Of a DNA stretch of 64,000 nucleotides, positions 3,274 to 24,072 are shown piece after piece. Source of the stretch: an uncultured beta proteobacterium (GTDB lineage Bacteria > Pseudomonadota > Gammaproteobacteria > Burkholderiales > SG8-39); the NCBI GenBank assembly GCA_902826155.1, contig CADEDU010000001.1, positions 167,070-231,069 of the forward strand. Reading direction: 5' to 3'. The stretch's first letter is position 1. Each line of letters starts with the position of its first letter. The notes below the pieces were generated by a model. It did not search any database. It was not told the origin of the DNA and saw nothing but the letters and a program-made list of their open reading frames with translations. The position numbers were made by a program, and so were the translations under genes.

Positions 3274-4656
3274 TCACTGCCAGCCGCCACCCAGTGCGCG
3301 GTACAGACTCACGTAGGTGCTCAGCCGCTCGAAGCGCGTCTGAAGGAAATCATCCTCGGCCTTGAGCATCGCGTTCTGCGTGTTCAGCAGGTTGAGCGCA
3401 TCGATCAATCCGGCGCGATAGCGCGTCTCGGCCAGATCGAACGCGCGCTTGGTGTGGCTGATGGTCTCCTGCTGCGCGGCGTCCTGCGCCGCGAGCTTCT
3501 CCAGTTGCACCAGCGCCGACTCCACGTCGCGCAGCGCGCCGAGGATGGTGTGGTGATAGGTCTGCACCAGCTCGGCGTGGCGTTCCTGCGCGCGTTCGCT
3601 CAGTGCCTGCAGCTTGTCGGCCTGGAAGATCGGCGCCAGCAGCCCCGCTCCGATGCTGAGCAGGCCGCTGGAGCCCTTGAGCAGGTTGGAGAGTTGCGCA
3701 CTGGCGAACCCTGCATCGGTAGTAAGTTGCAGACTCGGATACAGGTTGGCGCGCGCCACACCGACGTCGGCGTAGGCCGCGCGCAGGTTCGCTTCAGCCT
3801 GCAGGATGTCGGGCCGACGCAGCAGGATCGCCGCGGGCAGGCCGACCGGCAGTTGCGCCGGCAGACGCACGTCGGTGAGGCGCGGCGGTTCGATCGCCTG
3901 CTGGGTGGGATGCTGTCCGGCGAAGAACGCCAGCAGGTGGCGCGCTTGTGCCGCGGCTTGCTCCAGCGGCGGCAGGCTCGCGCGAATGGCCGCGACGTTG
4001 GCCAGACTCTGCGCACGGTCCAGACCTGACACGGCGCCGTTGCGGTAGCGCGTCTCGACGATGCCGTCGATGCGTTCGGCGACCGCCAGCGTGTTCTTCG
4101 CGAGCTCGAGCCGTTGACTGGCCGCGGTGAGCTGGAAGTAGGCGGTCGCGGTGTCGGCGGCAAGCGTGAGCTTCACCGCGCGTCCGGCTTCGGTGGCTGC
4201 ATCGAGCGTGGCGTGCGCCACGCGCGTGAGGTTGGCGAACTTGTCCCACAGATCGGGCTCCCAACCGATGTTCAGTTCGGCGCTGAACTTGTTGGCCGCC
4301 CCGCCGCCGCCCGAGAAAGGTCGGTTGCGCTCGGCGCCGATACCGCCGGTGATGAACGGATAGCGCCCCGCACCGGCTGCGCGCGTCACTGCACGCGCCT
4401 GGCCGATGCGATGCGTGGCGGCGCGCACGTCGCGGTTGCCAGCCAGCACTGTCTCTTCGAGTTGATCGAGCGTGCGATCCTCGAACGCGCGCCACCACTC
4501 GCCGGCGGCCGGGCTGTCGGCCTGTGTGATGGTCTTGGCGCCGTGCCACTGCTGCGGCATGTCGACGTCCGGGCGCTGATAGGCCGGCTGCATCGCGCAA
4601 CCACTTACCAGCATTCCACCTGCCAGCCACAACGAAATTGTTCGCATTGCCGTCAT
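3274..4656 (-). CDS. NodT-family outer-membrane efflux lipoprotein (TolC-like channel)
   Basis: A 460-residue outer-membrane factor. The N-terminus has a lipoprotein signal peptide with lipobox LVSGC (Cys about residue 20), followed by the family opening MQPAYQRPDV. Two repeated OEP halves follow, rich in long helices, ending in ETRYRAGLIDALNLLNTQNA and a short tail. It would form the trimeric tunnel through the outer membrane for the adjacent MacA/MacB pair. The ATG at 4656 overlaps the macB stop by four bases (ATGA). An internal Met three codons in, at 4647, is an equally good start. This is the last gene of the long operon running from about 20.5 kb. Cargo is inferred from context, perhaps a product of the polysaccharide genes, and is not shown by the protein itself. 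Confidence 0.88.
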   Translation of the reverse strand: MTAMRTISLWLAGGMLVSGCAMQPAYQRPDVDMPQQWHGAKTITQADSPAAGEWWRAFEDRTLDQLEETVLAGNRDVRAATHRIGQARAVTRAAGAGRYPFITGGIGAERNRPFSGGGGAANKFSAELNIGWEPDLWDKFANLTRVAHATLDAATEAGRAVKLTLAADTATAYFQLTAASQRLELAKNTLAVAERIDGIVETRYRNGAVSGLDRAQSLANVAAIRASLPPLEQAAAQARHLLAFFAGQHPTQQAIEPPRLTDVRLPAQLPVGLPAAILLRRPDILQAEANLRAAYADVGVARANLYPSLQLTTDAGFASAQLSNLLKGSSGLLSIGAGLLAPIFQADKLQALSERAQERHAELVQTYHHTILGALRDVESALVQLEKLAAQDAAQQETISHTKRAFDLAETRYRAGLIDALNLLNTQNAMLKAEDDFLQTRFERLSTYVSLYRALGGGWQ

Positions 4657-6599
4657 TCCCGTACGAGTGCGTCAACCGGATCGAGACGGGCCGCCTTGCG
4701 TGCCGGCAGAAAGCCGAACACGACACCGGTGGCCACCGCGGAGCCGAAGGCGAGCAGCACTGGCGCGGCGGTGAACACGGTCATCCAGCCGGTGAGCCGG
4801 CCGGTGAACAACGCGCCCGCCACGCCCAACGCCACGCCGACCAGTCCGCCGATGATGCAGACCACGATCGCCTCGGTGAGAAACTGGATCAACACGTCGC
4901 CGCCGCGCGCACCCACCGCCATGCGAATGCCGATCTCGCGGGTGCGCTCGGTCACCGATACCAGCATGATGTTCATCACGCCGATGCCGCCCACCACCAG
5001 CGAGATGACGGCGATCGAGGCGAGCAGATAACTGAGCGTGTTCTGCGCTTCGTTCGCCTTCTCGATGAGATCGGACTGGTTGCGGATGTGGAAGTCTTCC
5101 TTGCCGTGCCGATCGACCAGCAGCGCGTGCACCGATCGCTCCACCGGCGCGAGCAGCGAGGTCTCCTTGACCTTGACCGTGATGTCGCGGAAGTAGCGCT
5201 CGCCGAACACGCGTGTCGCGGCGGTGGTGTGGGGCATCCACATCTGGTAATCGCGGTCGGTGCCTCCGCCGGTGGCGCCCTTGGGGCCCATCACTCCGAT
5301 CACCTGGAACGGCGCGTTGTTGACGATGACGAATCGTCCGAGCGGATCGGTTCCGGCGTCGTACAGCTCGCGCGCGACGTTGTGACCGAGCACGATGACT
5401 TGCGCGTGCCGGCGCACATCTTCGGCATTGAAGAACGCGCCGCGGCGTACCGGCCAGTCGCGCACCAGCGGGAACGACTCGCCGGTGCCCACCGCCGGCA
5501 CCAGCAGGTCGCGATTGCCCTGACGCACGAGCACGGTGCGATCGGTCTCGGGCACGGCCATCGCCACGCCGGGCAGCGCATTGATCGGGCCCAGGTCGTG
5601 GGCGCTGAGGGTCTCGATGCCACGGCTCGCACCACGGACGCCGGCGACGCCGCGCTTGACCGACAGCAGATCGGTACCCATCGCATTGATACGTTCGATC
5701 ACCTGTCGCTTGGCACCTTCGCCGATCGCCAGCATCGCCACCACCGATGCCACGCCGATGACGATGCCTAGCATGGTCAGCCCGGTTCGCAGTCGATTGT
5801 GCGCGAGCGAGCGACCGGCCATCAGCAGCGATTCGAGCGCCACGGCCGCGCGATTGCCGCCGCTTGCGCCACTGCGTCGCATCGGCACCTGATCGGCGCG
5901 CGCCTGACGCGTGACGGTTTCGCGCACGACGCGTCCGTCGGCCAGCTCGATGATGCGGTCGGCGTGCTGCGCGACCTGCGCGTCGTGCGTGATGAGCACG
6001 ATCGTGTGGCCGTCGCGATGCAGGCCGTGCAGTACCTCGAGGACTTCGCGGCCGCTGGCACTGTCGAGCGCGCCGGTGGGCTCGTCGGCGAGGATGACCT
6101 GACCGCCGTTCATGAGCGCGCGCGCGATGCTGCAGCGCTGCTGTTGTCCGCCGCTCAGCTGACCGGGCCGGTGATCGAGTCGATCCTGCATGCCCAGGCG
6201 CGTGAGCAACGCGGCGGCGCGGTCACGCCGTTCGCCGCGCGCGACGCCTTCGTACACTGCCGGGATCGCCACGTTGTCGAGTGCGCTCAGGTCGGGCATC
6301 AGGTGGTAGCGCTGGAACACGAACCCGAACGTCTCGCGCCGCAGCGCGGCGAGTGCGCCCGGTGCGAGCGTGGCGACATCGAGGCCATCGACGCGATACT
6401 GACCTGCGGTGGGCCGATCGAGGCAGCCGAGCACGTTCATCAGGGTCGATTTGCCCGAGCCCGACTGGCCCATGATCGCGACGAACTCGCCCGCATCGAT
6501 GCTCAGATCGATGCCGTCCAGCGCGCGCACTTCGCTCGCGCCGGTGTGGTACGCGCGTTGCAGGCCGCGCAATTCGAGCAGTGGTCGGTGCATCGCCAT
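4653..6599 (-). CDS. macB: MacB-type ABC transporter, fused ATPase and permease
   Basis: A 648-residue protein with the standard MacB layout. The N-terminal ABC ATPase has Walker A GQSGSGKST (about residues 45-53), signature LSGGQQQRCSIARAL and Walker B VILADEPTGALDS. It is followed by TM1 around residue 270 (LTMLGIVIGVASVVAMLAIG), a large periplasmic MacB_PCD domain, and three C-terminal TM segments with the FtsX signature (ISLVVGGIGVMNIMLVSVTER). MacB is a mechanotransmission ATPase that works with a periplasmic adaptor and an outer-membrane channel; both are encoded next to it. Macrolides, lipopeptides, enterotoxin and lipids are known cargoes in the family. Here it is the penultimate gene of a polysaccharide operon, which suggests envelope or secreted-product export. 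Its start is 6 bp from the macA stop. Confidence 0.92.
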   Translation of the reverse strand: MAMHRPLLELRGLQRAYHTGASEVRALDGIDLSIDAGEFVAIMGQSGSGKSTLMNVLGCLDRPTAGQYRVDGLDVATLAPGALAALRRETFGFVFQRYHLMPDLSALDNVAIPAVYEGVARGERRDRAAALLTRLGMQDRLDHRPGQLSGGQQQRCSIARALMNGGQVILADEPTGALDSASGREVLEVLHGLHRDGHTIVLITHDAQVAQHADRIIELADGRVVRETVTRQARADQVPMRRSGASGGNRAAVALESLLMAGRSLAHNRLRTGLTMLGIVIGVASVVAMLAIGEGAKRQVIERINAMGTDLLSVKRGVAGVRGASRGIETLSAHDLGPINALPGVAMAVPETDRTVLVRQGNRDLLVPAVGTGESFPLVRDWPVRRGAFFNAEDVRRHAQVIVLGHNVARELYDAGTDPLGRFVIVNNAPFQVIGVMGPKGATGGGTDRDYQMWMPHTTAATRVFGERYFRDITVKVKETSLLAPVERSVHALLVDRHGKEDFHIRNQSDLIEKANEAQNTLSYLLASIAVISLVVGGIGVMNIMLVSVTERTREIGIRMAVGARGGDVLIQFLTEAIVVCIIGGLVGVALGVAGALFTGRLTGWMTVFTAAPVLLAFGSAVATGVVFGFLPARKAARLDPVDALVRE

Positions 6600-6605
6600 G
6601 CCCCC

Positions 6606-7796
6606 TTAGTTCATCCGCGCGATGCGCGGCTTGGTCGGCTTCGCGGCCTTGGTCGCGCCGGCCTCGTCGCCGATCACCACCAGCTCGCCTTCATTGACGC
6701 CGGACAGGATCTGCATCATCGATGCGCCCTTGATGCCGGTCTTGACGCTGCGCGTCTCGGCGGTGCCGTCGGCCAGCACCACCTTCACGCGATGCCGGCC
6801 GGCGCGGCCCTGATTGTCCGGACGCAGCGCCGAGAGCGGCACCAGCAGCGCTTCGCCGGCCTGGTCCTGCACGAAGAACACCTGCGCGGTCATCTGCACT
6901 TTCAAAGAGCCGTCGGGGTTGGGCACATCGAACAGCGCGTTGTAGAAGATCACGCCGTTGACGATCTCAGGGCCCGGCAGGATCTGTCGCACCTTGCCGC
7001 TGCGGCGCGTCTCCTGGTCGCCCAGGATGGTGAAGTAGGCGTCCTGCCCGATCCGAATGCTGGTGATGTCGGCTTCGGCCACCTGCGCCCACACCGTCAT
7101 CGTGTCCAGGCGCGCGATGCGCAGGATGTTCGGTGCGGTCTGATTGGCATTCAGGGTCTGGCCCTGGCGCGCCGTGATCGTCACCACCTCGCCGTCCATC
7201 GGTGCGACGATCCGCGTGTAACCCAATTGGGCGCGTGCCGTGGCGATGCCCGCCTGTGCCTGCTTGATCTGCGCATCCAGTGAATTGATGCTCGACACCG
7301 CCACGCGGAAGTTGGAGTCCATCACCTCGGCTTCCGACTTGGCCATCGCGTCGAGCGCCACCAGCGCCTGGCTGCGCTTGCGCTGCACATCGGCAAGCGT
7401 GAGCTGATCGAAGCGGGCCCGGCGCTGCGCGCGCAGGTTCTCCAGCGTCGCCTCGGCCTCGACCAGCTTCGCCTGATTGAGTACCGGATCAATCTCGCCG
7501 AGCAACTGCCCCTGGGTGACGCGATCGCCGGGTCGTACCGCGAGAGCGCGCAACTGGCCGGAGATCTGCGCGCCCACGTCGACGAATTGCACCGGCTGCA
7601 CCACCCCGGCAGCGATGACGGTGCGCTCGATCGGCCCCTTGGTGACCGGCGCGGTCAGAAAGTTCGCGGCGGACTGCTTGCGCTCGTTGCCGTCACTCCA
7701 CACTTCGCGCCAGGCGAACGTGGCGACGAGCACCAGCGCGGCCGCGCCGAACAACGACCAGGGAAGAATGCGGTTGGAATGTGGACGATTGGCCAT
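6606..7796 (-). CDS. macA: MacA-type periplasmic adaptor (membrane fusion protein)
   Basis: A 396-residue HlyD/MacA-family adaptor. It has one N-terminal membrane anchor (ILPWSLFGAAALVLVATFAW), a barrel-sandwich (lipoyl-like) half around VQFVDVGAQISGQL, a long helical hairpin (about residues 100-200, rich in Ala, Glu and Gln), the second lipoyl half at LGYTRIVAPMDGEVV, and a beta-barrel plus C-terminal domain. It joins the MacB ATPase to the outer-membrane channel encoded downstream. The frame stays open to 8417 upstream, but the ATG at 7796 is chosen because AAGGAG lies 7 nt before it and the anchor then sits at the N-terminus. A 119-bp gap separates it from the deacetylase gene, the largest in this operon, so a second promoter here is possible. 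Confidence 0.92.
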   Translation of the reverse strand: MANRPHSNRILPWSLFGAAALVLVATFAWREVWSDGNERKQSAANFLTAPVTKGPIERTVIAAGVVQPVQFVDVGAQISGQLRALAVRPGDRVTQGQLLGEIDPVLNQAKLVEAEATLENLRAQRRARFDQLTLADVQRKRSQALVALDAMAKSEAEVMDSNFRVAVSSINSLDAQIKQAQAGIATARAQLGYTRIVAPMDGEVVTITARQGQTLNANQTAPNILRIARLDTMTVWAQVAEADITSIRIGQDAYFTILGDQETRRSGKVRQILPGPEIVNGVIFYNALFDVPNPDGSLKVQMTAQVFFVQDQAGEALLVPLSALRPDNQGRAGRHRVKVVLADGTAETRSVKTGIKGASMMQILSGVNEGELVVIGDEAGATKAAKPTKPRIARMN

Positions 7797-7915: not shown

Positions 7916-8701
7916 TCATGGCGCGGGCACGGCGGTTGCAATCTGCGCCGTCGCACCGATGCGCGCGCTCGAACCGGCGCTGAGCAATGTGCGCATCGCC
8001 ACCAGGCGCACGCGCGGATGGCGGGTGATCGCCTCGAGCATCTGCTCCAGCGTGTCGAAGCTCTCGGCGTGCATGACGGCGTGATGCAGCATGACTCCGA
8101 ACGCCTGGTCGGCACCGGCGCAGGCGCTGAGTCCGCGGGTGAGCGCATCGAAGTCCGGACGCGATGTGCGGCACCAGTCGAGCGTCACGTCCGGTGTGCG
8201 CAATCCGTTCGTCTGAAGCGGTGCGGCGCCCACGTTGCGCGACAGCGCCGCGAAGCCGCAGGCCTGCAACGCCGCGACCGTCGCCTGCGAGCATCGATTC
8301 CACGGCGGCGTGAAGATCGGATCGAGCGCGTCGCCGAGCGTCTGCTGCAGGCGTGCTTGCCCTGCGGCGATGTCGGCATGCTGCTGCGCCGCCGAGCGCG
8401 CGTCGCCGAACTCGCACTTGCGAGCCTGCGGTTCATGATTCACGTGACGCAGGCCGTGTTGATGCAAGCCGAGCAGCGCCGGCGCCTCGTCGTGTCGCGC
8501 CAGCAGCATCCGTGCCGTGGCGCGCTCCAGTGCGTCGGGGATCACCGCCAGATCGAGCGGCGCGCGATACATCGCGAACAGATCGAGCAGCCGATACAGC
8601 CGCTCGTCGACCGCGCCGGCGTCGTCGTCACGGAAGAACATGGTGAGCGGCGCCGGCAGGGCATCGAGACAGCCGATGAGTGCGTCGATGCGGGGATTCA
8701 T
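7916..8701 (-). CDS. Polysaccharide deacetylase-like protein (NodB-homology fold)
   Basis: A 261-residue protein resembling the polysaccharide deacetylase group. An early FFRDDDAG motif (about residues 22-29) matches the metal/catalytic Asp motif, GLHQHGLRHVNH matches the HxxxH metal-ligand motif, and FTPPWNR matches the motif with the oxyanion Tyr or Trp. Such enzymes remove N- or O-acetyl groups from sugar polymers, which fits its position among glycosyltransferase genes. No signal peptide is evident, so action on a cytoplasmic or lipid-linked precursor is an inference. The start (ATG at 8701) overlaps the stop of the upstream glycosyltransferase by four bases. Some relatives annotated this way are uncharacterised, so the substrate is open. 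Confidence 0.75.
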   Translation of the reverse strand: MNPRIDALIGCLDALPAPLTMFFRDDDAGAVDERLYRLLDLFAMYRAPLDLAVIPDALERATARMLLARHDEAPALLGLHQHGLRHVNHEPQARKCEFGDARSAAQQHADIAAGQARLQQTLGDALDPIFTPPWNRCSQATVAALQACGFAALSRNVGAAPLQTNGLRTPDVTLDWCRTSRPDFDALTRGLSACAGADQAFGVMLHHAVMHAESFDTLEQMLEAITRHPRVRLVAMRTLLSAGSSARIGATAQIATAVPAP

Positions 8702-9957
8702 GCGAGAGGCTCCGAAAGTGCGACGGGAGTGGGGTTCGCCAACGTGCTGTTGCGATGCGCGGCCAGCAGCGATTGCACGATGCGCGTCGAACGCGCCGCG
8801 CCGTTCAGATCGAGCAGCGGTGTGACGTGCTCGATGAGCGGGGAGTGCGCGTTGGTGGAGGAAAGCGGGCTCGCCGGCACTCGCGCCGACAACGCCGCCA
8901 CCACCGCGCGCGCCAATGACTTCCCGCTCAGTCGTGCTTGCGGCAGCCAGGTGGCGATGCCCAATTGCTCCAGTCGCTGCGCGCGCCGGGTCTGCTCGTC
9001 CTCGCGCTCCGCGGCGTACGGCACGACGATCGCCGGCACGCGTGCGGCAACGATGTCGAGCGCGGTGTTGTAGCCGCACTGGCTTACCGACAGGGCCGCA
9101 CCTGCCATCTCGGCGGTGAGCGAGGGCACGGTGCGTTCAAGCGTGAAGCACGGCTCGTCGATCGCCGCCTGCCTGAGCGTGGCAAACGTGTCGTCATCGA
9201 CGAACGGGCCGGCGATCACCCGCATCGAGATCGGATGCGATCGTCGCAAGATGCGATGTGCGGCGAGCGCGGCGCGGAACAGTGCCGCACCGACGCTGCC
9301 GCTGCCTGCCGACACCAGCACCGTGGTAGTCCTGCGTGATGCAGGCGTCGGGCCCGGATGCACGAAGCCGGTGTAGTGCACCGGCACGGTCATCGGCACG
9401 ATCGGTCGGAATGACTCTTCCAGGCGTGCGAACTGCGCATCGGCGTGCACCAGCACTGCATCGAAGAATCGATTGGCCGTCATCGCGGCGCGATCGTCGT
9501 GGCGCTGCTGATCGGCGCGCGCCCCGACCAGGATGTCGCGCAGGCTGCAGAGCACCAGCGGACGCGCGTGTCCGCCCGGCGCGTGCGCCAGCTCCAGCAG
9601 CGGCACGATCTCGTCGGCGAACTTCTTGCGCCCGAACGGAAACAGCTCGATCAGCACCACCTGCGGATCGCACGATCGGAATGTCCGCTCGATCAAGGCA
9701 CGCCGCGCGGCCTTGGCTTGCGACAGGCTGTAGCGCGAATCGAGACTGACCAGCTGCTTGTCTTCGTCCATGCCGAGGGGCGGGAGCTGCACCAGCTCGA
9801 CCCCGCTTGGCACTGCCATGCCCGGCGGGAAATGACCGCCGCTGAGGAACACGACATGAAACGCCTCGCACAGGCTGCGCGACAGGGCGAAGGCGCGCGT
9901 CAGGTGGCCCATGCCGATGGCGTGCTGGCAGTAGAACAACAGGCGGGGTTTGCGCAT
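8698..9957 (-). CDS. MurG-like predicted glycosyltransferase (COG4671 type)
   Basis: A 419-residue GT-B fold protein. It opens with MRKPRLLFYCQHAIGMGHLTR, a glycine-rich N-terminal Rossmann start with the GxGH pattern of MurG-like enzymes. The C-terminal half has a nucleotide-sugar-binding section with VLVSAGSGSVG and VSQCGYNTALDIVAARVPAIVVPY, the typical family-28 donor-site loop. It has no signal peptide or TM segment and is probably a cytoplasmic or peripheral-membrane enzyme. It overlaps the deacetylase gene downstream and is 9 bp from the ABC transporter gene upstream. A second protein of the same type (19271-20512) is the first gene of the operon. Donor and acceptor sugars cannot be read from the sequence. 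Confidence 0.8.
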   Translation of the reverse strand: MRKPRLLFYCQHAIGMGHLTRAFALSRSLCEAFHVVFLSGGHFPPGMAVPSGVELVQLPPLGMDEDKQLVSLDSRYSLSQAKAARRALIERTFRSCDPQVVLIELFPFGRKKFADEIVPLLELAHAPGGHARPLVLCSLRDILVGARADQQRHDDRAAMTANRFFDAVLVHADAQFARLEESFRPIVPMTVPVHYTGFVHPGPTPASRRTTTVLVSAGSGSVGAALFRAALAAHRILRRSHPISMRVIAGPFVDDDTFATLRQAAIDEPCFTLERTVPSLTAEMAGAALSVSQCGYNTALDIVAARVPAIVVPYAAEREDEQTRRAQRLEQLGIATWLPQARLSGKSLARAVVAALSARVPASPLSSTNAHSPLIEHVTPLLDLNGAARSTRIVQSLLAAHRNSTLANPTPVALSEPLA

Positions 9958-11772: not shown

Positions 11773-13151
11773 GACTGACTCGATCCGTCAGCGCCACGTA
11801 CACCAAGGGCGCGGGTGGCTGCTTCGAGCAGGACCATCCCCCGGTCGAGCGCACGGTCCACATCAGGACGCTGCTGCAGAAACTGCCGGTACGCGCGATT
11901 GATCCAGTGCATCACCGCGTGCCATTTCACGCGGGACGCATCGAACGGCACGCCACCGGCGGCGCGATACGCGGCGATGAACCGATCGAGCACCGCATGC
12001 ACGTCGGGTGCCGGCAAGCCGCGCAGGGCGAGATCGACACCGAGATTGGCGATGTCGAGCGTGGCATCACCGATCGCTAGCTCGTCGAAGTCCGCCAGCA
12101 TCAGCGCATCGCCGTGCTGCAGCCACTGGCCCAGATGCAGATCGCCATGAATGCAGGCGCTGGCTGCCGTCGGCAGATCGGCGAGCGCGCGCGTCGCCTG
12201 CTCGATCGCCGCCAGCAATGGCGCGGCCGCGCGCGGATGCTCGGCGATGATCTTGGCGGCTTTCTTGGTGGCGTCGGCGATCAGTGCCGGCAGCGTCGGT
12301 GCGGGCGCGGCACGCAACGGCATTCGATGCAGGGCGGCGAGCGATCGGCCGAGTCGTTCGATCAGGACGCCATCGTCGGTGAGCGCGATGTGATCGTCGA
12401 GTGCAACGCCGTCGAAGTGCGCCAGCCACAGCGCGTTGTGCGCGGCATCGTAGTCGAGCGCCGTCGGGATCAGCACGTCGCCCAACCGCACATGACCGGT
12501 GCGCGCGAGCGTGTTGAGATGCCCGAACGTGTCCAGGCCGCGCCGGTCGGCGTACACCTTGGCGAATGCCACCGGATGTGGCGAGTCGGAGCGCCCGCGC
12601 GTCATGGTCAGCGCACAGCGTTGCAGCGGCCGGTACTTCACCACCGAGCAGCGAGCGTCCTGCTGCAATGTGGACGGGATCGAGGCGATCTGCGTGCGAC
12701 GGTTCGCGCGCTCATGCGTGGCGAGCAGCGCGGGTAATCCGGACAGACTCGGCTCGCTCGGCAGCATCCAGAACAGCGCGTCCGATCCGGGCAGATGCAC
12801 GAGGTCGACAACGTTGGCGCGCCATAGCTCATGGGCGTGGGCGCTGCGCGCGTCGCGAAACATGCGAGCGCCGAACCACACCGTGTCGCGACCGTTCACG
12901 ACGCATTGGTAGGCCGCCGTGAATGTCGCCTTGCCCCAGGACGCCTGGTTCAGATGGCGGTGGTAGCGCGCGTCGACCACGCTGCATTCCAGCTCCTCGA
13001 TCGCCGATGCGTCGAAGCGTTGCGGCAGGCGCGGCATCACCTGCTCGTGCAGCAGATGCGCCACTCGCACGATGTCGTGCCAGCGTGCGAATGCGCCCGC
13101 ACCAGCGTCCGCACCGATGGCTGCGGCGTGGATGGTCGGTGCGCTAGCCAT
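11769..13151 (-). CDS. APH-like phosphotransferase family protein (paralogue 2)
   Basis: A 460-residue protein whose C-terminal half carries the APH/choline-kinase pattern: CIHGDLHLGQWL (catalytic Asp kept, but Gln where the motif usually has Asn) and LMLADFDELAIGDATLDIANL. The N-terminal half has ALFWMLPSEPSLSGLPALL, then VVKYRPLQRCALT, then AFAKVYADRRG. This order is shared with the proteins at 13144-14553 and 2075-3262. Family members phosphorylate small hydroxylated compounds, including sugars, aminoglycosides, choline and homoserine. In this operon a sugar, lipid-sugar or polyol substrate is plausible but unproven. The ATG at 13151 (MASAPTIH) overlaps the upstream stop by 8 bp and is preferred to the longer open frame reaching 13220. 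Confidence 0.75.
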   Translation of the reverse strand: MASAPTIHAAAIGADAGAGAFARWHDIVRVAHLLHEQVMPRLPQRFDASAIEELECSVVDARYHRHLNQASWGKATFTAAYQCVVNGRDTVWFGARMFRDARSAHAHELWRANVVDLVHLPGSDALFWMLPSEPSLSGLPALLATHERANRRTQIASIPSTLQQDARCSVVKYRPLQRCALTMTRGRSDSPHPVAFAKVYADRRGLDTFGHLNTLARTGHVRLGDVLIPTALDYDAAHNALWLAHFDGVALDDHIALTDDGVLIERLGRSLAALHRMPLRAAPAPTLPALIADATKKAAKIIAEHPRAAAPLLAAIEQATRALADLPTAASACIHGDLHLGQWLQHGDALMLADFDELAIGDATLDIANLGVDLALRGLPAPDVHAVLDRFIAAYRAAGGVPFDASRVKWHAVMHWINRAYRQFLQQRPDVDRALDRGMVLLEAATRALGVRGADGSSQS

Positions 13152-16589: not shown

Positions 16590-17965
16590 GATGCGCGCTC
16601 CAGCAACGGTGCGCCCGCTCGTGCCGGTGTCTGCGCCAGCTCGCGCTGGAACAGGTTGTAGAGCGTGCGCGTGGTGATGCGCGCATCGAATCGTTCGTGC
16701 ACCTTTTGCGACGCGCGCGCACCGAGGCGTTCGCGCAGCGCCTGGTCGGTCAGCAGCCGCTGCAGTGCACCTGCCAGTGCACCGGCGTCGCGATCGGCGA
16801 CCAGCAGGCCGTCGCGGCCGTCGTCGACCAGCTCCGGGATGCCCGAGATCGGCGTCGACACCACCGCCAGCCCGGTTGCCATCGCCTCGGCCAGCACGTT
16901 GGGGATGCCGTCGCGATCACCGTCGTCGGTCACCAGGCAGGGCAGGGCGAACACGGCGGCGCGGGCATACCAATCCACCAATTCGTCCTGCGTCACGGCG
17001 CCGTGCAGGCTGACCATCTCGCCCAGCTGCAGGCGATCGATCGCCGCACGCAAGCGTTCGGCCATGCCGCCGTCTTCACCGATCAGCTCGCAACGAAACG
17101 CCACGCCTGCGTCGCGCACGCGGGCACAGGCCTCGATCAGCACGTCGAAACCCTTCTTCTCGACCAGCCGGCCCACTGCTAGCACCAGCGGCGGCGCGTC
17201 GTTGCGGTCGGTGCCGCCACGCATGGCGCGGCCGAAGCGATGCAGGTCGAGCCCGTGGTAGATCGTGTGCACGGTGCGACACGACGGACACACGCCGCGC
17301 AGATGCTGTTCGTTGGCGGCCGTGCAGGTGGCGATGAAGCGCGCCGCCTGCATCTTGCGGGCCAGCAGGTCGCCTGGATTGAGTCCGGCCTGATAGATGT
17401 CCTTGGCGTGCGCGGTGAAGCTGAACGGCAAGCCGGTCAGACCGCTGACGAACCAGGTGACCGTGGTCGCGCCATGGCAGAAGTGGCCGTGCAGATGGCG
17501 CACGCCCGGTGCATCGAGCAGCGCGGCGGCGATCGATCCGGCCTGCACGAACTCCTTGATGAACACCTTGCGCGGTGCGAGCGTGGATTTGCGATAGCGC
17601 CACGCCATCGCCACCGCGCGCGCGAGCGTGGCCGCGTAGCGCAACGGTCGGTGCAGCGCCAGGCGCGCATGGGCGCCGGCGAAGCGGGTGAAGTTCTCGA
17701 CCAGCCAGCCGGCCAGGCTGCGATCGGAGATGCCGCTCGCATTCGGGATCTGCAACAACGGGGCCCGGATTCGCGCGACCACGCCTTGCACCTTGTCGTG
17801 CTCGCCGGGTTTGATCGAATACAGGCGCAGTCCCAGGCCCATCTGCTCCAGCAGATGGATCTCGTTGGCGATGAAGGTCTCTGTCAGCCGCGGAAAGCCC
17901 TTGAGGATGTAGCCCACCTCACCGGCAGCAACCGAGGTGTCGCGCATGGGTGTATCAGCTCGCAT
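16586..17965 (-). CDS. GT4-family glycosyltransferase (polysaccharide operon, second GT4)
   Basis: About 459 residues, GT-B fold. The N-terminus has VGYILKGFPRLTETFIANEI, typical of exopolysaccharide GT4 enzymes. The C-terminal donor domain has LVLAVGRLVEKKGFDVLIEA and the EX7E-type region GDRDGIPNVLAEAMATGLAV. It would add a sugar from a nucleotide donor to a lipid-linked or growing chain at the cytoplasmic face. It is clearly paralogous to the next gene upstream (17955-19274), sharing GDRDGIPNVL and the opening motif, so duplication is likely. ATG at 17965 overlaps the upstream stop by 11 bp; a second ATG at 17947 is possible and Shine-Dalgarno support is weak for both. The stop overlaps the GTG of the heparinase-like gene. 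Confidence 0.87.
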   Translation of the reverse strand: MRADTPMRDTSVAAGEVGYILKGFPRLTETFIANEIHLLEQMGLGLRLYSIKPGEHDKVQGVVARIRAPLLQIPNASGISDRSLAGWLVENFTRFAGAHARLALHRPLRYAATLARAVAMAWRYRKSTLAPRKVFIKEFVQAGSIAAALLDAPGVRHLHGHFCHGATTVTWFVSGLTGLPFSFTAHAKDIYQAGLNPGDLLARKMQAARFIATCTAANEQHLRGVCPSCRTVHTIYHGLDLHRFGRAMRGGTDRNDAPPLVLAVGRLVEKKGFDVLIEACARVRDAGVAFRCELIGEDGGMAERLRAAIDRLQLGEMVSLHGAVTQDELVDWYARAAVFALPCLVTDDGDRDGIPNVLAEAMATGLAVVSTPISGIPELVDDGRDGLLVADRDAGALAGALQRLLTDQALRERLGARASQKVHERFDARITTRTLYNLFQRELAQTPARAGAPLLERAS

Positions 17966-19274
17966 GTTGTTGTCTCTCGGCGGTGACCGCGGCCCGATCC
18001 ATCGAGGGGGCACGGCTCGCCTGGGTGAGCAGATCACGCACCAGCACCAGGTTGCGGGCGTTGGAGAACTGCCGGGCGACGGTGTCGCGCGCGCGCATAC
18101 CGAGTGCTGCGCGCTGCGCCGGATTCATGATGAGTCGCTCCATCGCGTGGGCGAGCGCACCGACATCCTGTGCCGGCACCAGCAGGCCGTTGCGGTCGTG
18201 CTCGATGACTTCGGGGATGCCCGAGACCGGCGTGCTGATTACCGGCAGCTGCATCGACATGGCTTCGAGCAGCACGTTCGGAATGCCGTCGCGGTCGCCG
18301 TCGGCGCCGATCTGGCACGGCAGCACGAACAGCGTCGCGCGCGCGTAGGCCTCGATCACTTCGTGCTGCGCGCGCTTGCCCAGCAGATGGATGCAGTGCG
18401 ACAGCCCGAGCGCGACGATGCGCGCACGCAGCACCGCTTCGTCCGGGCCGTAGCCGATGATCTCGCAGCGGAACGGCACCTGCCGCGCCACCAGCTGCGC
18501 GCAGGCTTCGATCAGTGTAGGGAAGCCCTTCTTCTCGCGCAGCCGGCCGACGCTCAGGATCACCGGCGGCTGCACCTGATTGCGACCCTGCGGACCGGTG
18601 CGGCGCGCGAAGCGCTCCAGATCGATGCCGTGGTACATCCGGTGCACGCTCGCGCCGGGACCGCCGATCCGCTGCAGATGGTGGCGGTTGTATTCGGTGC
18701 ACGTCACCGTGAACTGCGCACCGCGCAGGCGCTGCGCCAACGCGACCGGGTCGGACATGTAGATGTCCTTCGCGTGCGCGGAGATGCTGTAGGTGCCGCC
18801 GATCATGGTAGCGGCCACGGCGGCGAGTGCAGCGGGTTCGCTCGCGAAGTGCGCGTGCACGTGACGGATGCGCTGGGCTTCTAGTTCGTTGGCCAGCATG
18901 CCGGCATGCACGAAGCGGGACCAGCGGTCCGGTTCGCGTGAACCGACCGTCTCACGCAGCGCGCGCAGATAGCCGCGGGGATGCCTGGCGAGCACGCGCG
19001 CGTGCGCGGCAATCGCCTGCGCCATCGCTGATCGCGCCGGCTGCGTGACGTATCGGACCGCGGCCCGCACCTTGCCCACCTGGGCGTGCGCGAACGCGTC
19101 GGTGGGCTGCTGCAGCGAGAAGATCGCCAGTGGCACGCCCAGCGCTTCCAACCCCAGGATCTCGCCGAGCACGAACGTCTCGGAGAGTTTCGGATAGGTT
19201 TTGAGCAGCAACCCGATCGGGGCGTGGCCGCGCCGGGGATCGCGCGTCGAGATGTTGCGAGTAAGGACGGTCAT
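17955..19274 (-). CDS. GT4-family glycosyltransferase (polysaccharide operon, first GT4)
   Basis: A 439-residue GT-B glycosyltransferase. It starts near PIGLLLKTYPKLSETFVLGE, the same opening as its downstream paralogue. It has the donor-domain motif ILSVGRLREKKGFPTLIEA and the EX7E-type stretch GDRDGIPNVLLEAMSMQLPV. A central YSISAHAKDIYMSDP matches FTAHAKDIYQAGLNP in the paralogue. Substrate unknown. The ATG at 19274 overlaps the upstream stop by four bases (ATGA) and is preferred to the open extension reaching 19748, which lies wholly inside the neighbouring gene. It acts with the other glycosyltransferases here in assembling the repeat unit; this role is inferred from operon context. Confidence 0.87.
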   Translation of the reverse strand: MTVLTRNISTRDPRRGHAPIGLLLKTYPKLSETFVLGEILGLEALGVPLAIFSLQQPTDAFAHAQVGKVRAAVRYVTQPARSAMAQAIAAHARVLARHPRGYLRALRETVGSREPDRWSRFVHAGMLANELEAQRIRHVHAHFASEPAALAAVAATMIGGTYSISAHAKDIYMSDPVALAQRLRGAQFTVTCTEYNRHHLQRIGGPGASVHRMYHGIDLERFARRTGPQGRNQVQPPVILSVGRLREKKGFPTLIEACAQLVARQVPFRCEIIGYGPDEAVLRARIVALGLSHCIHLLGKRAQHEVIEAYARATLFVLPCQIGADGDRDGIPNVLLEAMSMQLPVISTPVSGIPEVIEHDRNGLLVPAQDVGALAHAMERLIMNPAQRAALGMRARDTVARQFSNARNLVLVRDLLTQASRAPSMDRAAVTAERQQHAS

Positions 19275-20512
19275 TGGGCGAGCGCCGGGATCGGTGCGTA
19301 GTAACTCGCCGCGGCGCTGCTGTCGTGCTCGCGCAACTCGGCCAGGGCGTCGCCCACTCCGCGCAGGCCACCGAGATCGATCTGATGCAGCGCCTGCCGG
19401 ATGACGTTGCGTTGTCCGAGCTCCTCGGTCAGCGCCGCGTGCAGGCTCTTGGGCGTGAGGTGCTCCGGATGCAGTGCACGCAGCAGCCCCAGACGCGCCA
19501 TGCGCTCGGCCCGGATCCACTGCTCCTGCACCGGACGCGTGCGCGGCACGACGATCGCGCGCTTCCTGAGCGTGAGCAGCTCGCACACGGTGTTGTAGCC
19601 GCCCATCGACACCGTCAGATCGGCCGCGTCGACCAGGCTCATCATGTCGTCGCTGAAGTCGATGACGCGCACCGAGCGGCCGCTGCCCAGCGCGCGTGCC
19701 TTGTTGTGCAACTGCTGCCGCTGTGCCTCGGCCATCTCCGGGCCGCACAGCACGACGCTTTGATAGGCACTGTGCTGCGGGGCGTAGTGCAGCGCGTCGA
19801 GATAGCAGTTGAGCAGCTCGAACCCGTCTTCGCCGCCGCCGGCCGAGGCCAGAACGAGCGGACGCACGTCCGCGCCAAGGATTGCGCGCTGTGCTTCGCG
19901 CGGCGTGCGTCCGCGTTCACGCCCGATGTAGCCGCAGAACCGCACCTTGGCGGCGGCGGCTTCGGGAAAGCCGTACTCCTGGCGTGCGTCGAAGATCTCG
20001 GGTGAACCGACGATCAGCACGCGATCGTAGTGCGACTCGATCGCACCGAAGTAGCCGTTCTTGTTCCAGACCGCGCGCGTCGCCTCCGGACTGTCGAGGA
20101 TGTCGCGCAGCAGCAGCACGGTGCGCGGCCGATAGGTGCGACGCTGCAGCACGTCGAGGGCCGGTGCCAGCTCGTTGCCCACGCCGAAGGGCTTCTTGTC
20201 GACCAGGATCAGGTCGGGCTGGAAGTCGAGCACGGTGCTCAGGATCAGGTTGGCACGCAGCCGGACGGTGTCCTGATAGTGCAGCGACAGGAACTTCACC
20301 GTGTACTCGCCGTTGCGCGTGCGTGCGAGGCTCGGCAGCTTGACGTAGTCGATGCGCGCGGGGATGCGGAACGCGTGCAGCATCGGCGAGCCGGTGAGGA
20401 TCAACACCGAGGTGTCCGGATCGTCGCTCACCAGATGCCGGGCGATCTCCAGCATGCGCTTGATGTTGCCCAGGCCGAAGGTGTCGTGCGAGTAGATCAG
20501 TACTTTGCGCAT
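19271..20512 (-). CDS. MurG-like predicted glycosyltransferase (COG4671 type), first gene of operon
   Basis: A 413-residue GT-B protein starting MRKVLIYSHDTFGLGNIKRM, with the glycine-rich loop GLGNIKR replacing the usual GxGH of MurG. The C-terminal half has the donor-binding loop LTVSMGGYNTVCELLTLRKR and VVPRTRPVQEQWIRAERM. It is the same type as 8698-9957 but belongs to a subgroup lacking the His. It is the promoter-proximal gene: the predicted sigma-54 start site lies about 32 nt upstream of its ATG. No good Shine-Dalgarno is seen before 20512; an in-frame ATG at 20533 would add seven residues and would sit only 11 nt after the predicted transcript start. The later ATG matches the start of its homologue better. 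Confidence 0.8.
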   Translation of the reverse strand: MRKVLIYSHDTFGLGNIKRMLEIARHLVSDDPDTSVLILTGSPMLHAFRIPARIDYVKLPSLARTRNGEYTVKFLSLHYQDTVRLRANLILSTVLDFQPDLILVDKKPFGVGNELAPALDVLQRRTYRPRTVLLLRDILDSPEATRAVWNKNGYFGAIESHYDRVLIVGSPEIFDARQEYGFPEAAAAKVRFCGYIGRERGRTPREAQRAILGADVRPLVLASAGGGEDGFELLNCYLDALHYAPQHSAYQSVVLCGPEMAEAQRQQLHNKARALGSGRSVRVIDFSDDMMSLVDAADLTVSMGGYNTVCELLTLRKRAIVVPRTRPVQEQWIRAERMARLGLLRALHPEHLTPKSLHAALTEELGQRNVIRQALHQIDLGGLRGVGDALAELREHDSSAAASYYAPIPALAQ

Positions 20513-20554: not shown

Positions 20555-20571
20555 TGCAGCGACCGTGCCAG
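20555..20571 (-). promoter_or_regulatory. Sigma-54 (RpoN) -24/-12 promoter for the polysaccharide operon
   Basis: Read on the minus strand the site is CTGGCACGGTCGCTGCA. It matches the RpoN consensus YTGGCACG-N4-TTGC at every position except one (CTGC for TTGC), with the required 10-bp spacing between the GG (20569-20568) and GC (20557-20556) pairs. The predicted transcript start is near 20544, giving a leader of about 32 nt to the ATG at 20512. The next gene upstream on the same strand encodes an NtrC-type sigma-54 activator, which supports the call. Confidence 0.75.
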
Positions 20572-20742: not shown

Positions 20743-20790
20743 CTCACGCAGGTTGTGTATCGGGCGCAACCACGTGGAACGCGCACGCCG

Positions 20791-20882: not shown

Positions 20883-20924
20883 GCGCGTCAGCGCGGCGCG
20901 GGATTACGCAGAGCAGGAAGCGGC

Positions 20925-22298
20925 TTACAGCCGATACTTCTCGATGCGATAGCGCAGGGTGTCGCGCGAGATACCGAGCAGGCGCGCCGCGCGCGAGACG
21001 TTGCCGTGGCTACGCTCCAGGGCGGCGACCAGCAGATCGCGTTCGACGCGATGCAGATTGAGCGCAGCAGGGGCGAGCGCGTGCGCCTCTTCTTGCGTTG
21101 CGGGCTGCGCCACGGATTGCGCCTCGGTCGTACCCAGTGCGAGGTCGATTGCATCGATCGTGTGGCCGGTGGCCATGACGACCGACTGCTCGATCAGGTT
21201 GCGTAATTCGCGCACGTTGCCGGGCCAGTCGTACTGTTGCAGCGCCTGCATGGCAGCAGAGCTGAATTGCAAGTCGGGCCTGCCGTATCGGGTGCGATGC
21301 ACCTCGAGAAAATGCGCGGCGAGTAACGCCGCGTCGCCGTCGCGCTCGCGCAGCGCCGGCAGGCCGATCTGGATGATGCGCAGGCGAAAGTAGAGGTCGG
21401 CGCGGAACCTGCCCTCGCGCACCAGCTGTTCCAGGTCGCGATTGGTGGCGGCGATGATGCGCACGTTGACCTTGCGTTCGCGCACGCTGCCCAGCCGGCG
21501 CACCTGCTTGTCTTCCAGCAGCTTGAGCAGCTTGGCCTGGGCGCTGGGCTCGATCTCACCTACCTCGTCGAGAAACAACGTGCCGCCATCGGCGGCTTCG
21601 ATCAGACCGGGCTTCTGCTCCTTGGCGTCGGTGAAGGCGCCGCGCTCGAATCCGAACAGCTCGGCTTCGAGCAGATTCGACGGAATGCCCGAACAGTTGA
21701 CCTCGATGAACGGTTGCGCGCTGCGTTCGCCGTCGAAATGCATGGCGCGCGCGACGAGCTCCTTGCCGGTGCCGGTTTCTCCGGTGATCAGCACCGCCGG
21801 TGCGTCGCTGTCGGCCAGCTGTTTTTCCGCGCTGATGACCTGGCGGATGCGCGTCTTGAGCGCCTGCATCGTCGTCGACTCGCCGATCAACCGGTCGAGT
21901 CCGCCCGGCCGCGCCGGTTGCGGTTCGGCTGCCCTCACGTCCTTGAGCAGGCGATCGAGTGTTTCGCGCAGCTTGCCCAGCTCGAGCGGCTTGGTGAGGT
22001 AGTCATCCGCGCCCGATTTCATCGCGTCGACGGCCACCCGCTCGCTGCCGAAGCCGGTCACCATGACCACTTTGGCGTTGCGATCGCGCGCGCGGATGCG
22101 ATCGAGCAGCTGCAGGCCGTTCAGCCCAGGCAGGTTGTAGTCGAGCAGCACGGCAGCGGGGGCGAGACCGGGCAGCTCGCGCAGCGCCGCTTCGCCCGAG
22201 GCGCAGACATGCACGTTGTAGTCGAAGCGCTGCAGATAGGCGCGGATGTTCTTGGCCAGCGTTGCTTCGTCTTCCACCAACAGGACCGGACAGGGCAT
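20925..22298 (-). CDS. NtrC-family sigma-54-dependent response regulator
   Basis: A 457-residue activator with three domains. The receiver (about 1-118) has phosphoacceptor Asp53 (AAVLLDYNLPG) and Lys103 (YLTKP). The AAA+ sigma-54 interaction domain (about 135-375) has Walker A GETGTGKE (173-180) and Walker B GTLFLDEVGE. A Fis-type helix-turn-helix lies at the C-terminus (NVSRAARLLGISRDTLRYRI). The sigma-54 contact loop reads GAFTDA (220-225) in place of GAFTGA; this variant is seen in some activators. Its start is 3 bp after the stop of the sensor kinase, so the two form an operon. The next operon downstream has a strong sigma-54 promoter, making it the probable target. The pair is reminiscent of PrsK/PrsR and other EPS-linked systems, but the kinase lacks the PrsK layout. 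Confidence 0.9.
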   Translation of the reverse strand: MPCPVLLVEDEATLAKNIRAYLQRFDYNVHVCASGEAALRELPGLAPAAVLLDYNLPGLNGLQLLDRIRARDRNAKVVMVTGFGSERVAVDAMKSGADDYLTKPLELGKLRETLDRLLKDVRAAEPQPARPGGLDRLIGESTTMQALKTRIRQVISAEKQLADSDAPAVLITGETGTGKELVARAMHFDGERSAQPFIEVNCSGIPSNLLEAELFGFERGAFTDAKEQKPGLIEAADGGTLFLDEVGEIEPSAQAKLLKLLEDKQVRRLGSVRERKVNVRIIAATNRDLEQLVREGRFRADLYFRLRIIQIGLPALRERDGDAALLAAHFLEVHRTRYGRPDLQFSSAAMQALQQYDWPGNVRELRNLIEQSVVMATGHTIDAIDLALGTTEAQSVAQPATQEEAHALAPAALNLHRVERDLLVAALERSHGNVSRAARLLGISRDTLRYRIEKYRL

Positions 22299-22301
22299 CG
22301 T

Positions 22302-23726
22302 TCAGGCCGCCTTCAGGGTGACCGTGGCGGAGGTGCCGATGCCGACCTGACTGCGCATCGCGATGGTGCCGCCGAAGCGTTGCAGCACGCGACGCACCAG
22401 TGGCAGACCCACGCCCATGCCGTGCTTCTTGGTCGACTGGAACGGCACGAACAGGCGCTCGAGCTGATCGGGAGCGATGCCGATGCCGGTGTCGTCGATC
22501 GACAGTTCGATCGCGTCGCCGTGATCGGCGCGCGCGGCTCGCGCGGTGCGCACGGTGAGCGTGCCCCCGCCGGGCATGGCTTCGATGGCGTTGGCGATGA
22601 GCGAGGCGAACACCTGCCGCAGCAGCGCCGCGTCGCCCTTCACGCTCGGCAGACGTTCGCCCAGACGCCATTGGATCGCGATGTGCAGGCGCTCGGCGTC
22701 GCGTGTGAATTCGGCGATCGCGTCCTGCGCCAGCTCGTTGACGTCGACCCGTCCGGTAGGGTCGTCGGTGACTTGCGTATAGGTGACCAGGCTGCGCACA
22801 CCCAGCTCGATGCGGTCGACCTCCTGCATGATCTCGATGCAATGCTCGCGACCGGCGGCACCGTGCGTGACGCCCAGCAGTTCGGCCGAGGATCGGATCG
22901 AAGAGAGCGGGTTGCGGATGCCATGGGCGACCACCGCCGTCATCTCGCCGATCGCAGTGAACGACTCGTTGGCCGCCAGTTGCGCCGCTTGTTGCGTGAT
23001 CACGCGATCGGCACGCCGCACGATCCAGAACAGGCCGCCGAACAGCAGCAACCCGCCCAACAGCGCGCACAGCCAGATCAGACGCATCGCGCGACGGAGT
23101 GTCTGGTACAGGGCGCGCGGTTCCTTGTACAGCTCGACCACGCCGATCACCTGGCGGTTCTGCTCGTCCCACACCGGGATGTAGTTTTCGACGAAATCGC
23201 GCATCGTCGATCCGAAGAAGACGTGCTCGGGCTTCATGTAGCTGCGGTGCTCGAGGATGTCGGCCTCGACCGACAGCTCGCCGCGCAACGCCGCATCGAG
23301 CTCGGGATTGAGTTCGAACTGCCGGCCAATCGCCTGCGGATTGCTCGACCAGATGATGGTGCGGTTGCGCGTGTAGACGTTCGCTCGAAGCACGTCGGGC
23401 ATGGTGGTGATGCGCTCGAAGAACTCTTCCATGCGCCGCGCATCAGGCGCCGTGGCCGGTCCGCTGAAGTACGAATCGGCGCGGGCGGAGCGGGTCAGCG
23501 ACTGGATGAAGGCCATGCCGACCTCGGCGTCACGGCGCAGCATCTGCTCGACGAACAGGCGCGAGACGAGCACCGCCGACACCGACACCAGCACGACGAT
23601 CGAGATCAGGCTCACCAGCGCGAACCAACGCGTCAGATTGAACGGTCGCGGCCGGTTGCGGTCCGTTGGTGCGGCGTCCGCTTGTTCCGCAGCTGTGACA
23701 GGCGATGAGAGAACGCCGCCGTGCAT
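22302..23726 (-). CDS. Membrane sensor histidine kinase (NtrB-like), partner of the sigma-54 response regulator
   Basis: A 474-residue kinase with TM1 at about 34-56, an extracytoplasmic sensor domain of about 155 residues, TM2 at about 216-236, then a HisKA region with the phospho-accepting His268 in VVAHGIRNPLSSIRSSAELL. The ATPase domain has the N, G1 and G2 boxes (IANAIEAM, DTGIGIAP, GMGVGLPL). The sensor domain has no motif I recognise; its RIVIW-like and PEHVFFGSTMRDFVENYIPVWD stretches suggest a dCache/sCache-like PAS fold. The frame is open to 24044, but ATG 23726 is preferred: GAGGA lies 9 nt before it and the earlier part does not look like protein. It probably controls phosphorylation of the regulator encoded immediately downstream. 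Confidence 0.87.
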   Translation of the reverse strand: MHGGVLSSPVTAAEQADAAPTDRNRPRPFNLTRWFALVSLISIVVLVSVSAVLVSRLFVEQMLRRDAEVGMAFIQSLTRSARADSYFSGPATAPDARRMEEFFERITTMPDVLRANVYTRNRTIIWSSNPQAIGRQFELNPELDAALRGELSVEADILEHRSYMKPEHVFFGSTMRDFVENYIPVWDEQNRQVIGVVELYKEPRALYQTLRRAMRLIWLCALLGGLLLFGGLFWIVRRADRVITQQAAQLAANESFTAIGEMTAVVAHGIRNPLSSIRSSAELLGVTHGAAGREHCIEIMQEVDRIELGVRSLVTYTQVTDDPTGRVDVNELAQDAIAEFTRDAERLHIAIQWRLGERLPSVKGDAALLRQVFASLIANAIEAMPGGGTLTVRTARAARADHGDAIELSIDDTGIGIAPDQLERLFVPFQSTKKHGMGVGLPLVRRVLQRFGGTIAMRSQVGIGTSATVTLKAA

Positions 23727-23894
23727 AGATCCAAGTCCTCGTTGCGTCGATCGATGCGGCCACCACCTGATGGCCGCGAGCGCCCCCGCGCATTGCAGGC
23801 ACGATGGGTGATGCCTGGCCTCGTGCCGCTTGGTGTGCTGCTGGATCAGGGTCGCCCGAAATATCCTGAAAGGTCCGAGCCCAAAACCAGTAAT

Positions 23895-23910
23895 TGGGAA
23901 AATATTCCCA
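23895..23910. promoter_or_regulatory. A/T-rich palindrome upstream of the sensor kinase (possible operator)
   Basis: TGGGAA-AATA-TTCCCA is a perfect 6-bp inverted repeat with a 4-bp centre in the only A/T-rich patch of this gap, about 170-185 bp before the kinase start. It shares the AATTGGG/CCCATT flavour of the palindrome at 20723-20742, so autoregulation by the neighbouring response regulator is one possibility. Confidence 0.35.
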
Positions 23911-23951
23911 TTATCGGGGGGCGGCGTCAAGCGATCCGTCGGGGGGGCGGG

Positions 23952-23984
23952 CCTGGTCCGAACCAGGATAGTCCTGGTCAGAAC
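23952..23984. repeat. Tandem CCTGGTC(C/A)GAAC elements, 21 bp apart
   Basis: CCTGGTCCGAACC at 23952-23964 and CCTGGTCAGAACA at 23973-23985 are near-identical direct repeats two helical turns apart. The first also forms the palindrome CCTGGT-CCGA-ACCAGG. A weaker third element, GGTCCGAGCC, is at 23872-23881. This layout is typical of a dimeric regulator's operator, but the regulator is unknown. Confidence 0.4.
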
Positions 23985-24072
23985 AATCGGGCCGATACCG
24001 GTCGATTCCAGCCGCCCACCGGTCGGCAGGCGGCGTTGGCGCATGGAATCTGTGTTCTTCCGACAGGCGCGC

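Follow-up and report, generated by a model that had tools for sequence, protein, structure and literature searches.

How might a bacterium release a glycan to the outside when the last genes of the pathway encode a MacAB-type pump? The question is raised by a row of twelve minus-strand genes in a 64-kb stretch of DNA with 66% GC from an uncultured betaproteobacterium (contig CADEDU010000001.1; the whole stretch is called the window here), in which genes for glycosyltransferases and an MsbA-type ABC exporter are followed by macA, macB and nodT. MacAB-type pumps are best known for the expulsion of antibiotics. A first reading of this DNA, made from its letters alone (the sequence-only reading), had taken the twelve genes for one operon unit. 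Comparison with relatives shows that nine of them make up a core, which is found again in varying form from Betaproteobacteria to Nitrospira, Acidobacteria and Actinobacteria; the twelve-gene unit is a composite of this core and macA-macB-nodT. The glycan locus is real and conserved, and the exchange of exporters at its end rests on one genome. We propose, with about an even chance of being right, that this sigma-54-controlled locus makes an anionic amino-sugar exopolysaccharide or glycoconjugate, which the MsbA-type ABC protein would bring to the periplasm and MacAB-NodT would release in place of an AlgE-like porin.

A nine-gene core among relatives

Loci of relatives were collected by deacetylase alignment together with two exact peptide patterns of the deacetylase, with one genome per species, giving 266 loci; gene maps were built by tblastn. 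The best 80 of the 266 were used for counting, and the counts therefore describe relatives with a similar deacetylase, some of which share a strain or come from sister bins. Among deacetylase homologues, the best 120 of 1769 were examined. Host names and phyla are those of the record titles and include Methylomonas, Aromatoleum, Ramlibacter, Rubrivivax, Nitrospira, Acidobacteria and Solirubrobacter. The window itself encodes a DnaE that shares 68, 67 and 66% identity with the proteins of three metagenome-assembled genomes (MAGs) among 30 genomes searched, two titled betaproteobacteria and one titled Bordetella parapertussis, and a MetG whose best relatives are 65–67% identical.

The core consists of two MurG-like glycosyltransferases (GT28a and GT28b), two GT4 transferases (GT4a and GT4b), a heparinase-like lyase, two APH-fold proteins (APH2 and APH1), an MsbA-type ABC protein and a CE4-type deacetylase. 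The order lyase-APH2-APH1-ABC-GT28b-deacetylase is kept on one strand in 29/80 loci, and the lyase lies on the deacetylase's strand in 48/80. Elsewhere pieces have moved or are missing: for example, the ABC gene follows the deacetylase in Nitrospira, and in Solirubrobacter the cluster is divergent from the deacetylase. GT28a has a match at E ≤ 1e-25 in 47/50 genomes, some of them probably paralogues; in the 30 relatives compared, it shares the deacetylase's strand and lies 8.6–14.0 kb upstream (11.8 kb in the window). Of nine genomes checked between GT28a and the lyase, six have both GT4 genes there and the three of the Methylomonas type have GT4b only; the missing GT4a in these three rules out that all nine genes are present everywhere.

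The distribution is patchy, with the deacetylase detected (E ≤ 1e-30) in 6/399 sampled Burkholderiales genomes; in the families of two close relatives it was found in 1/4 and 1/12 genomes. Among the matches listed, the nearest relatives of the window deacetylase are 69–73% identical (P0002–P0004). Matches to the deacetylase on rhizobial plasmids (about 29–35% identity) were rejected as members of the same cluster, two neighbourhoods showing a GT4-deacetylase pair. The core has the look of a widely distributed polysaccharide system, and a full-text search of open-licence literature (titles and abstract starts) found no description of this gene combination; nor did the literature search give a title describing the cluster for the Leptothrix/Sphaerotilus sheath polysaccharide, a candidate that we set aside.

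A sugar dehydrogenase of the UDP-glucose/GDP-mannose type is present in 19/80 loci (15 on the deacetylase's strand), which points to a uronic acid. The absence of a nearby initiating transferase, which the sequence-only reading had pointed out, held among the window proteins scanned; in 27 relatives the contig of the cluster has no Bac_transf gene (E ≤ 1e-20) within about 90 kb, many of these contigs being short, and 26/27 have one somewhere in the genome.

In an alignment with heparinase III (4mmh), the lyase-fold protein keeps the catalytic Asn, Tyr and His (N190, Y244 and H374), which are invariant in 30/30 sequences, the window's included. None of the 30, with starts chosen mechanically, has an N-terminal hydrophobic stretch, so the protein should be cytosolic. 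In the deacetylase the motifs DD, HGxxH, TPPWNR and LHH, of the NodB type found in CE4 enzymes, are invariant in 34 aligned sequences; its predicted model (predicted local distance difference test, pLDDT, 90) matches CE4 enzymes including ArnD, some relatives carry PF10096 or PF01522, and 37/38 sequences are without an N-terminal hydrophobic stretch.

The APH-fold proteins differ in their motifs. APH2 keeps the motif Asp and Asn in 31/31 sequences, window included, and APH1 has Gln for the motif Asn in 27/28. The APH1 model, made for P0121 (99% identical; pLDDT 85), has choline/ethanolamine kinase, PsiK and glucosamine kinase as its nearest folds, with resistance kinases also among the matches. 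Judged from such models, these proteins would share only their fold with aminoglycoside resistance kinases, and their context argues for a role in sugar metabolism.

Further genes accompany the core in some loci. A histidine phosphatase gene lies between APH2 and APH1 in G002, G412, G428, G084, G427, G421 and G440 and not in the window. A version of the cluster on a plasmid of a Candidatus Manganitrophus (Nitrospirota) MAG (L155; CP114562.1) contains radical SAM/SPASM and histidine phosphatase genes, several genes looking split in the record. In L003, L040, L061 and L067 a DMFA2_C (dimethylformamidase beta-like) gene stands near the cluster, with a further MurG-like transferase before it.

Porin and pump at the export end

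A profile for AlgE-like proteins (family Alginate_exp) was built from 26 relatives. Of the lyase-type loci, 51 extend 2.5 kb or more past the deacetylase, and an AlgE-like protein is present in 37 of these, on the deacetylase's strand in 36 and starting within 150 nt of the deacetylase in 32. The 14 loci without one comprise 8 from actinobacteria, 4 from acidobacteria and 2 from proteobacteria. All actinobacterial lyase-type loci are thus without AlgE (L049 and L050 share one strain number), which is expected if AlgE serves the outer membrane. No match to AlgE (Alginate_exp) was found in the window, where macA-macB-nodT occupies the place after the deacetylase at which AlgE usually stands.

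The sequence-only reading had treated the twelve genes as belonging together, and this was not borne out: at locus-scan thresholds of >120 bits for MacB and >30 bits for MacA, a macA-macB pair accompanies the glycosyltransferases in 0/51 lyase-type loci. Even at >20 bits MacA was seen in one of them only, as an RND-type adaptor. This match (68 bits, in L020), the only MacA-like one among the 80 loci, was rejected as MacA, being part of an RND operon that is situated 7 kb past the deacetylase and whose transporter is ACR_tran (Pfam); 'MdtABC-like' is our label for that operon, given by eye. L020 and L161 (G006) both show an AlgE-less lyase-type cluster; after it come genes for a UDP-sugar dehydrogenase and an epimerase-family protein, and an RND-type operon that includes an outer-membrane factor (OMF) stands 7 kb further on.

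Two relatives have the order macA-macB-OMF on a contig other than that of the cluster: Aromatoleum diolicum, where the cluster has AlgE, and Ramlibacter monticola, where the fetched locus shows none. These trios are 54–56% (MacB), 39–43% (MacA) and 34–40% (OMF) identical to the window's, and their position on other contigs marks the trio as a portable module. In 5/80 loci (L058, L063, L073, L075 and L078) a MacB-type ATPase at >120 bits is encoded on the deacetylase's strand, downstream of it; all five are without the lyase and of Desulfo- or Deltaproteobacterial title, and no MacA was found in them. The two that were inspected have a small FtsX protein, the ATPase and then a very long protein, which in L058 matches FtsX, MacB_PCD and peptidase M28. 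From these loci, MacB-type transport may have joined this deacetylase more than once. Several other loci have MacB-like ATPases below the threshold (for example, 92–101 bits in L049–L051 and L053), and in the lyase-type locus L077 one of 136 bits lies 5.9 kb away on the opposite strand.

The window MacB matches MacB of 5nik over its full length (606 bits) and scores 719 with the NCBIfam model, below the cut-off of 966; MacA is likewise below its cut-off (Table 1). By these scores the pair is best described as a MacAB-like pump, not asserted as an NCBIfam equivalog, and the ABC exporter, at 429.5 bits with the MsbA model (cut-off 602), as MsbA-like only. With MacAB-TolC and other pumps of the MacB superfamily the window shares MacA, a fused MacB and a NodT-family channel in one row; unlike them, its trio stands in a glycan operon at the AlgE position and scores under the equivalog cut-offs.

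A third APH-fold gene, APH3, follows the trio on the plus strand, outside the interval 3274..24044 that the sequence-only reading covered. Its product has HGAPH in place of HGDxH and is missing the catalytic Asp. Relatives at ≥170 bits occur in 11/80 loci, all with HGA, and in G002 the APH3 relative stands after AlgE. Because APH3 has relatives in other clusters, the trio has cluster-type genes on both sides and is embedded in the locus, to which APH3 probably belongs.

The leading alternative, which we take seriously while holding it to be somewhat improbable, is that the nine-gene core is a glycan system and macA-macB-nodT an ordinary drug or peptide efflux operon that landed downstream, expressed by read-through or by its own transcription. 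A 119-nt gap and a Shine-Dalgarno of its own set macA apart from the deacetylase gene, the trio resembles the off-cluster macAB-OMF operons of Ramlibacter monticola and Aromatoleum diolicum, and none of the 51 lyase-type loci shares it. Set against this, the trio fills the usual place of AlgE in a window without an AlgE match, a cluster-type gene (APH3) lies beyond it, and the operon shows neither a sigma-70-like promoter nor an excess of terminators.

Operon layout and predicted sigma-54 control

All twelve reading frames are open and encode the domains that the sequence-only reading had assigned, as judged by Pfam and NCBIfam models and, where Pfam is silent, by predicted folds (Table 1). 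With GTG at 18037 taken as the start of GT4b (alternatives are 17965 and 17947), genes overlap at 8/11 junctions, in agreement with the linkage first described; GT28a and GT4a share an ATGA overlap, and the lyase and APH2 meet at TGATG. Besides the 119-nt gap between the deacetylase and macA, the non-overlapping junctions are 9 nt from ABC to GT28b and 6 nt from macA to macB. The macA start is here corrected to 7796, preceded by its AAGGAG Shine-Dalgarno. Between 3000 and 21200 no sigma-70-like promoter was found, and terminator-like sites are no more frequent than in shuffles (7 versus a mean of 7.0).

Table 1. Predicted features of the locus, with positions in the window.
Feature	Position	Strand	Basis
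Sensor histidine kinase of the sigma-54 module	22302..24044	-	HATPase_c 84 bits, HisKA 29 bits
Sigma-54-dependent response regulator	20925..22298	-	Response_reg, Sigma54_activat (218 bits), HTH_8
-24/-12 RpoN promoter-like site TGGCACGGTCGCTGCA	20555..20570	-	11/12 to consensus
GT28a, MurG-like glycosyltransferase, first operon gene	19271..20512	-	Glyco_tran_28_C 58 bits
GT4a glycosyltransferase	17955..19274	-	Glycos_transf_1 125 bits
GT4b glycosyltransferase, third operon gene	16586..18037	-	Glycos_transf_1 116 bits
Heparinase II/III-type lyase-fold protein, without signal peptide	14553..16589	-	Hepar_II_III_N and _C
APH2, APH-fold protein, HGDxHxxN and DxD motifs	13144..14553	-	TCAD9 37.3 bits, below cut-off 40
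APH1, APH-fold protein, motif Asn replaced by Gln	11769..13151	-	Kinase-like predicted fold; no Pfam match
MsbA-type ABC exporter	9967..11772	-	ABC_membrane, ABC_tran
GT28b, second MurG-like glycosyltransferase	8698..9957	-	Glyco_tran_28_C 42 bits
CE4-fold polysaccharide deacetylase, without signal peptide	7916..8701	-	Motifs and predicted fold; no Pfam match
MacA periplasmic adaptor	6606..7796	-	MacA model 320.8 bits, cut-off 342
MacB fused ATPase-permease	4653..6599	-	ABC_tran, MacB_PCD, FtsX
NodT/TolC-family outer-membrane channel	3274..4656	-	TIGR01845 343 bits, cut-off 210
APH3, APH-fold protein, HGAPH, convergent with operon	2075..3262	+	PF01636 30 bits, cut-off 23
Phenylacetate-CoA-ligase-like gene, meets APH3 start	591..2075	+	AMP-binding 62 bits

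The operon is predicted from its upstream sequence to be under RpoN control. The -24/-12 site named by the sequence-only reading, TGGCACGGTCGCTGCA, runs from 20570 on the minus strand, 58 nt ahead of the ATG at 20512, with a shuffle p of 0.005. Three 11/12 matches to the consensus occur on both strands of the 64 kb (0.43 expected), the other two sitting inside operon genes on the opposite strand. The activator and sensor kinase reported upstream are both confirmed by their domains; they do not adjoin the operon immediately: 412 nt separate the regulator from GT28a, and this interval contains a terminator-like hairpin (20870) as well as the -24/-12 site (20570).

In G002 the regulator upstream of the cluster is 60% identical to the window's over 467 columns and the histidine kinase 45% identical over 458 amino acids. 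We scored 500 bp upstream of GT28a against 200 first-order Markov shuffles per genome in 36/37 genomes (G444, with no upstream match, was dropped). A -24/-12 site at p ≤ 0.02 was found in 9/36 relatives, with 0.7 expected, and in 8 of the 9 its distance from the first match position is no more than 130 bp. Upstream of GT28a, 9/37 genomes, G002 among them, encode a regulator whose local match to the G002 one reaches 52% identity or more, and six or more of these nine carry it on the opposite strand. With site and regulator each found in nine genomes, the sigma-54 module is kept in a subset of relatives only. The sequence-only reading stands in part: a glycan operon with a sigma-54 module is supported, the site and a related regulator recurring in some relatives, and the twelve genes are not one conserved unit.

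Downstream of the deacetylase, on the other strand, three loci (L041, L045 and L071) encode a histidine kinase with about 40% identity to that of the window; L041 and L045 at least have a related regulator upstream of GT28a. Like PEP-CTERM/XrtA loci with PrsK-PrsR, where passages of PMC9850573 and PMC1569441 tie sigma-54 two-component control to exopolysaccharide, the window joins such control to a glycan locus. Membership of that system was rejected: regulator and kinase score under the PrsR and PrsK cut-offs (TIGR02915, 369.6 versus 502.6 bits; TIGR02916, 90.3 versus 300), and no exosortase was found among the window proteins scanned.

Of the other genes in the window, the phenylacetate-CoA-ligase-like gene is a doubtful member of the system, with no match in the mapped regions of relatives. 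Positions 46893–54198 hold genes for a Hydrogenase-4-like/NuoCD-like membrane complex ahead of metG (HyfB model 872 bits, cut-off 667), and 58646–62249 a receiver joined to a Ser/Thr protein kinase in one protein and, after it, a hybrid histidine kinase that has an Hpt domain. A regulator-like grouping of 58646–59944 proved to be an artefact, the protein being this receiver and protein kinase.

A candidate pathway and its alternatives

Under the reading proposed at the outset, the two MurG-like and two GT4 transferases would assemble the glycan in the cytosol, its deacetylation would fall to the CE4 protein, and the heparinase-fold protein would cleave or epimerise its uronic-acid residues; the APH-fold proteins may phosphorylate a sugar or serve as regulatory partners. 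The MsbA-type ABC protein would carry the product to the periplasmic side, and MacA-MacB-NodT would drive it from there to the outside, the step that we assign to the AlgE-like porin in relatives. A signal sensed by the kinase would lead to phosphorylation of the regulator, which together with RpoN would turn on the operon. In passages of PMC5985334, MacB-type pumps export glycolipids, as DevBCA does, the pyoverdine MacB-type pump acts from the periplasm, and pumps of this type would need another pump across the inner membrane. On these features, cytosolic synthesis, MsbA-type transfer and release by MacAB-NodT would be the simplest reading. The core and the promoter draw on comparison across genomes; we infer the nature of the glycan, the reaction of the lyase, the substrates of the kinases and the role of MacAB, the last from one genome.

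Several observations weigh against this proposal. A macAB in a lyase-type cluster is a single case, and the genome may carry an AlgE gene outside the 64-kb window. MacA and MacB resemble drug-efflux members, and the gap and Shine-Dalgarno before macA would allow macAB-nodT to be a separate unit. The lyase-fold protein might act as an epimerase or have no activity. In 27/36 relatives the upstream scan found no sigma-54 site at p ≤ 0.02. In 5/8 AlgE-less actinobacterial loci the cluster is on the strand opposite the deacetylase, so the place compared differs there.

The likeness to alginate-type systems lies in the relatives, which have an Alginate_exp protein beside the lyase-fold cluster, often with a UDP-sugar dehydrogenase. 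What sets the locus apart from those systems is its four transferases of the GT-B type, its MsbA-type ABC, a lyase that has no signal peptide and, in the window, the lack of AlgE; among the window operon genes there is no GT2 synthase or Alg44-like domain.

A different product, a glycolipid or lipid-linked oligosaccharide, is a further and rather unlikely alternative, in which the MsbA-type ABC would flip the product and MacAB-NodT export it, in the manner of DevBCA with a TolC homologue for heterocyst glycolipids. MurG acts on a lipid acceptor, and ArnD, among the fold neighbours of the deacetylase, acts on a lipid-linked sugar. AlgE-type porins are known for hydrophilic polymers, and the AlgE-like porin in 37/51 relatives speaks against a lipid product, as does the lack of an acyltransferase or lipid gene among the core domains. 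The export of glycolipids by MacB-type pumps (in passages of PMC5985334, which also name DevBCA) favours it. In the heterocyst system, DevBCA and a HepA-type ABC likewise set a MacB-type pump and an MsbA/HepA-type ABC around an envelope glycan. The window ABC scores 372 bits with HepA_fam_ABC (cut-off 725). Unlike the heterocyst system, the locus has other glycan enzymes and another host, and the likeness is one of gene type.

That the locus serves glycan uptake, breakdown or modification, with catabolic lyase, kinases and deacetylase, is very unlikely: being without signal peptides, the lyase-fold, sugar-kinase-like and deacetylase proteins might act on oligosaccharides brought in from outside, but the core has four glycosyltransferases, an export-type ABC and no importer domain, and relatives carry an AlgE-type porin and a UDP-sugar dehydrogenase.

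Extending the exopolysaccharide proposal, we tentatively suggest, as the less probable case, an undescribed class of exopolysaccharide pathway shared across phyla, in which cytosolic assembly, cutting by the lyase and deacetylation would be joined to one canonical and two degenerate APH-fold proteins, an MsbA-type ABC and interchangeable outer-membrane modules: AlgE-like in most proteobacteria, none seen in actinobacteria, and MacAB-NodT here as a dedicated polysaccharide exporter. If the MacAB role is true, a pump type of antibiotic efflux would have been recruited as a terminal glycan exporter, giving MacAB a natural substrate that can be tested. The exchange of AlgE for MacAB, together with the absence of AlgE from actinobacterial loci, would let comparison of lineages test models of export.

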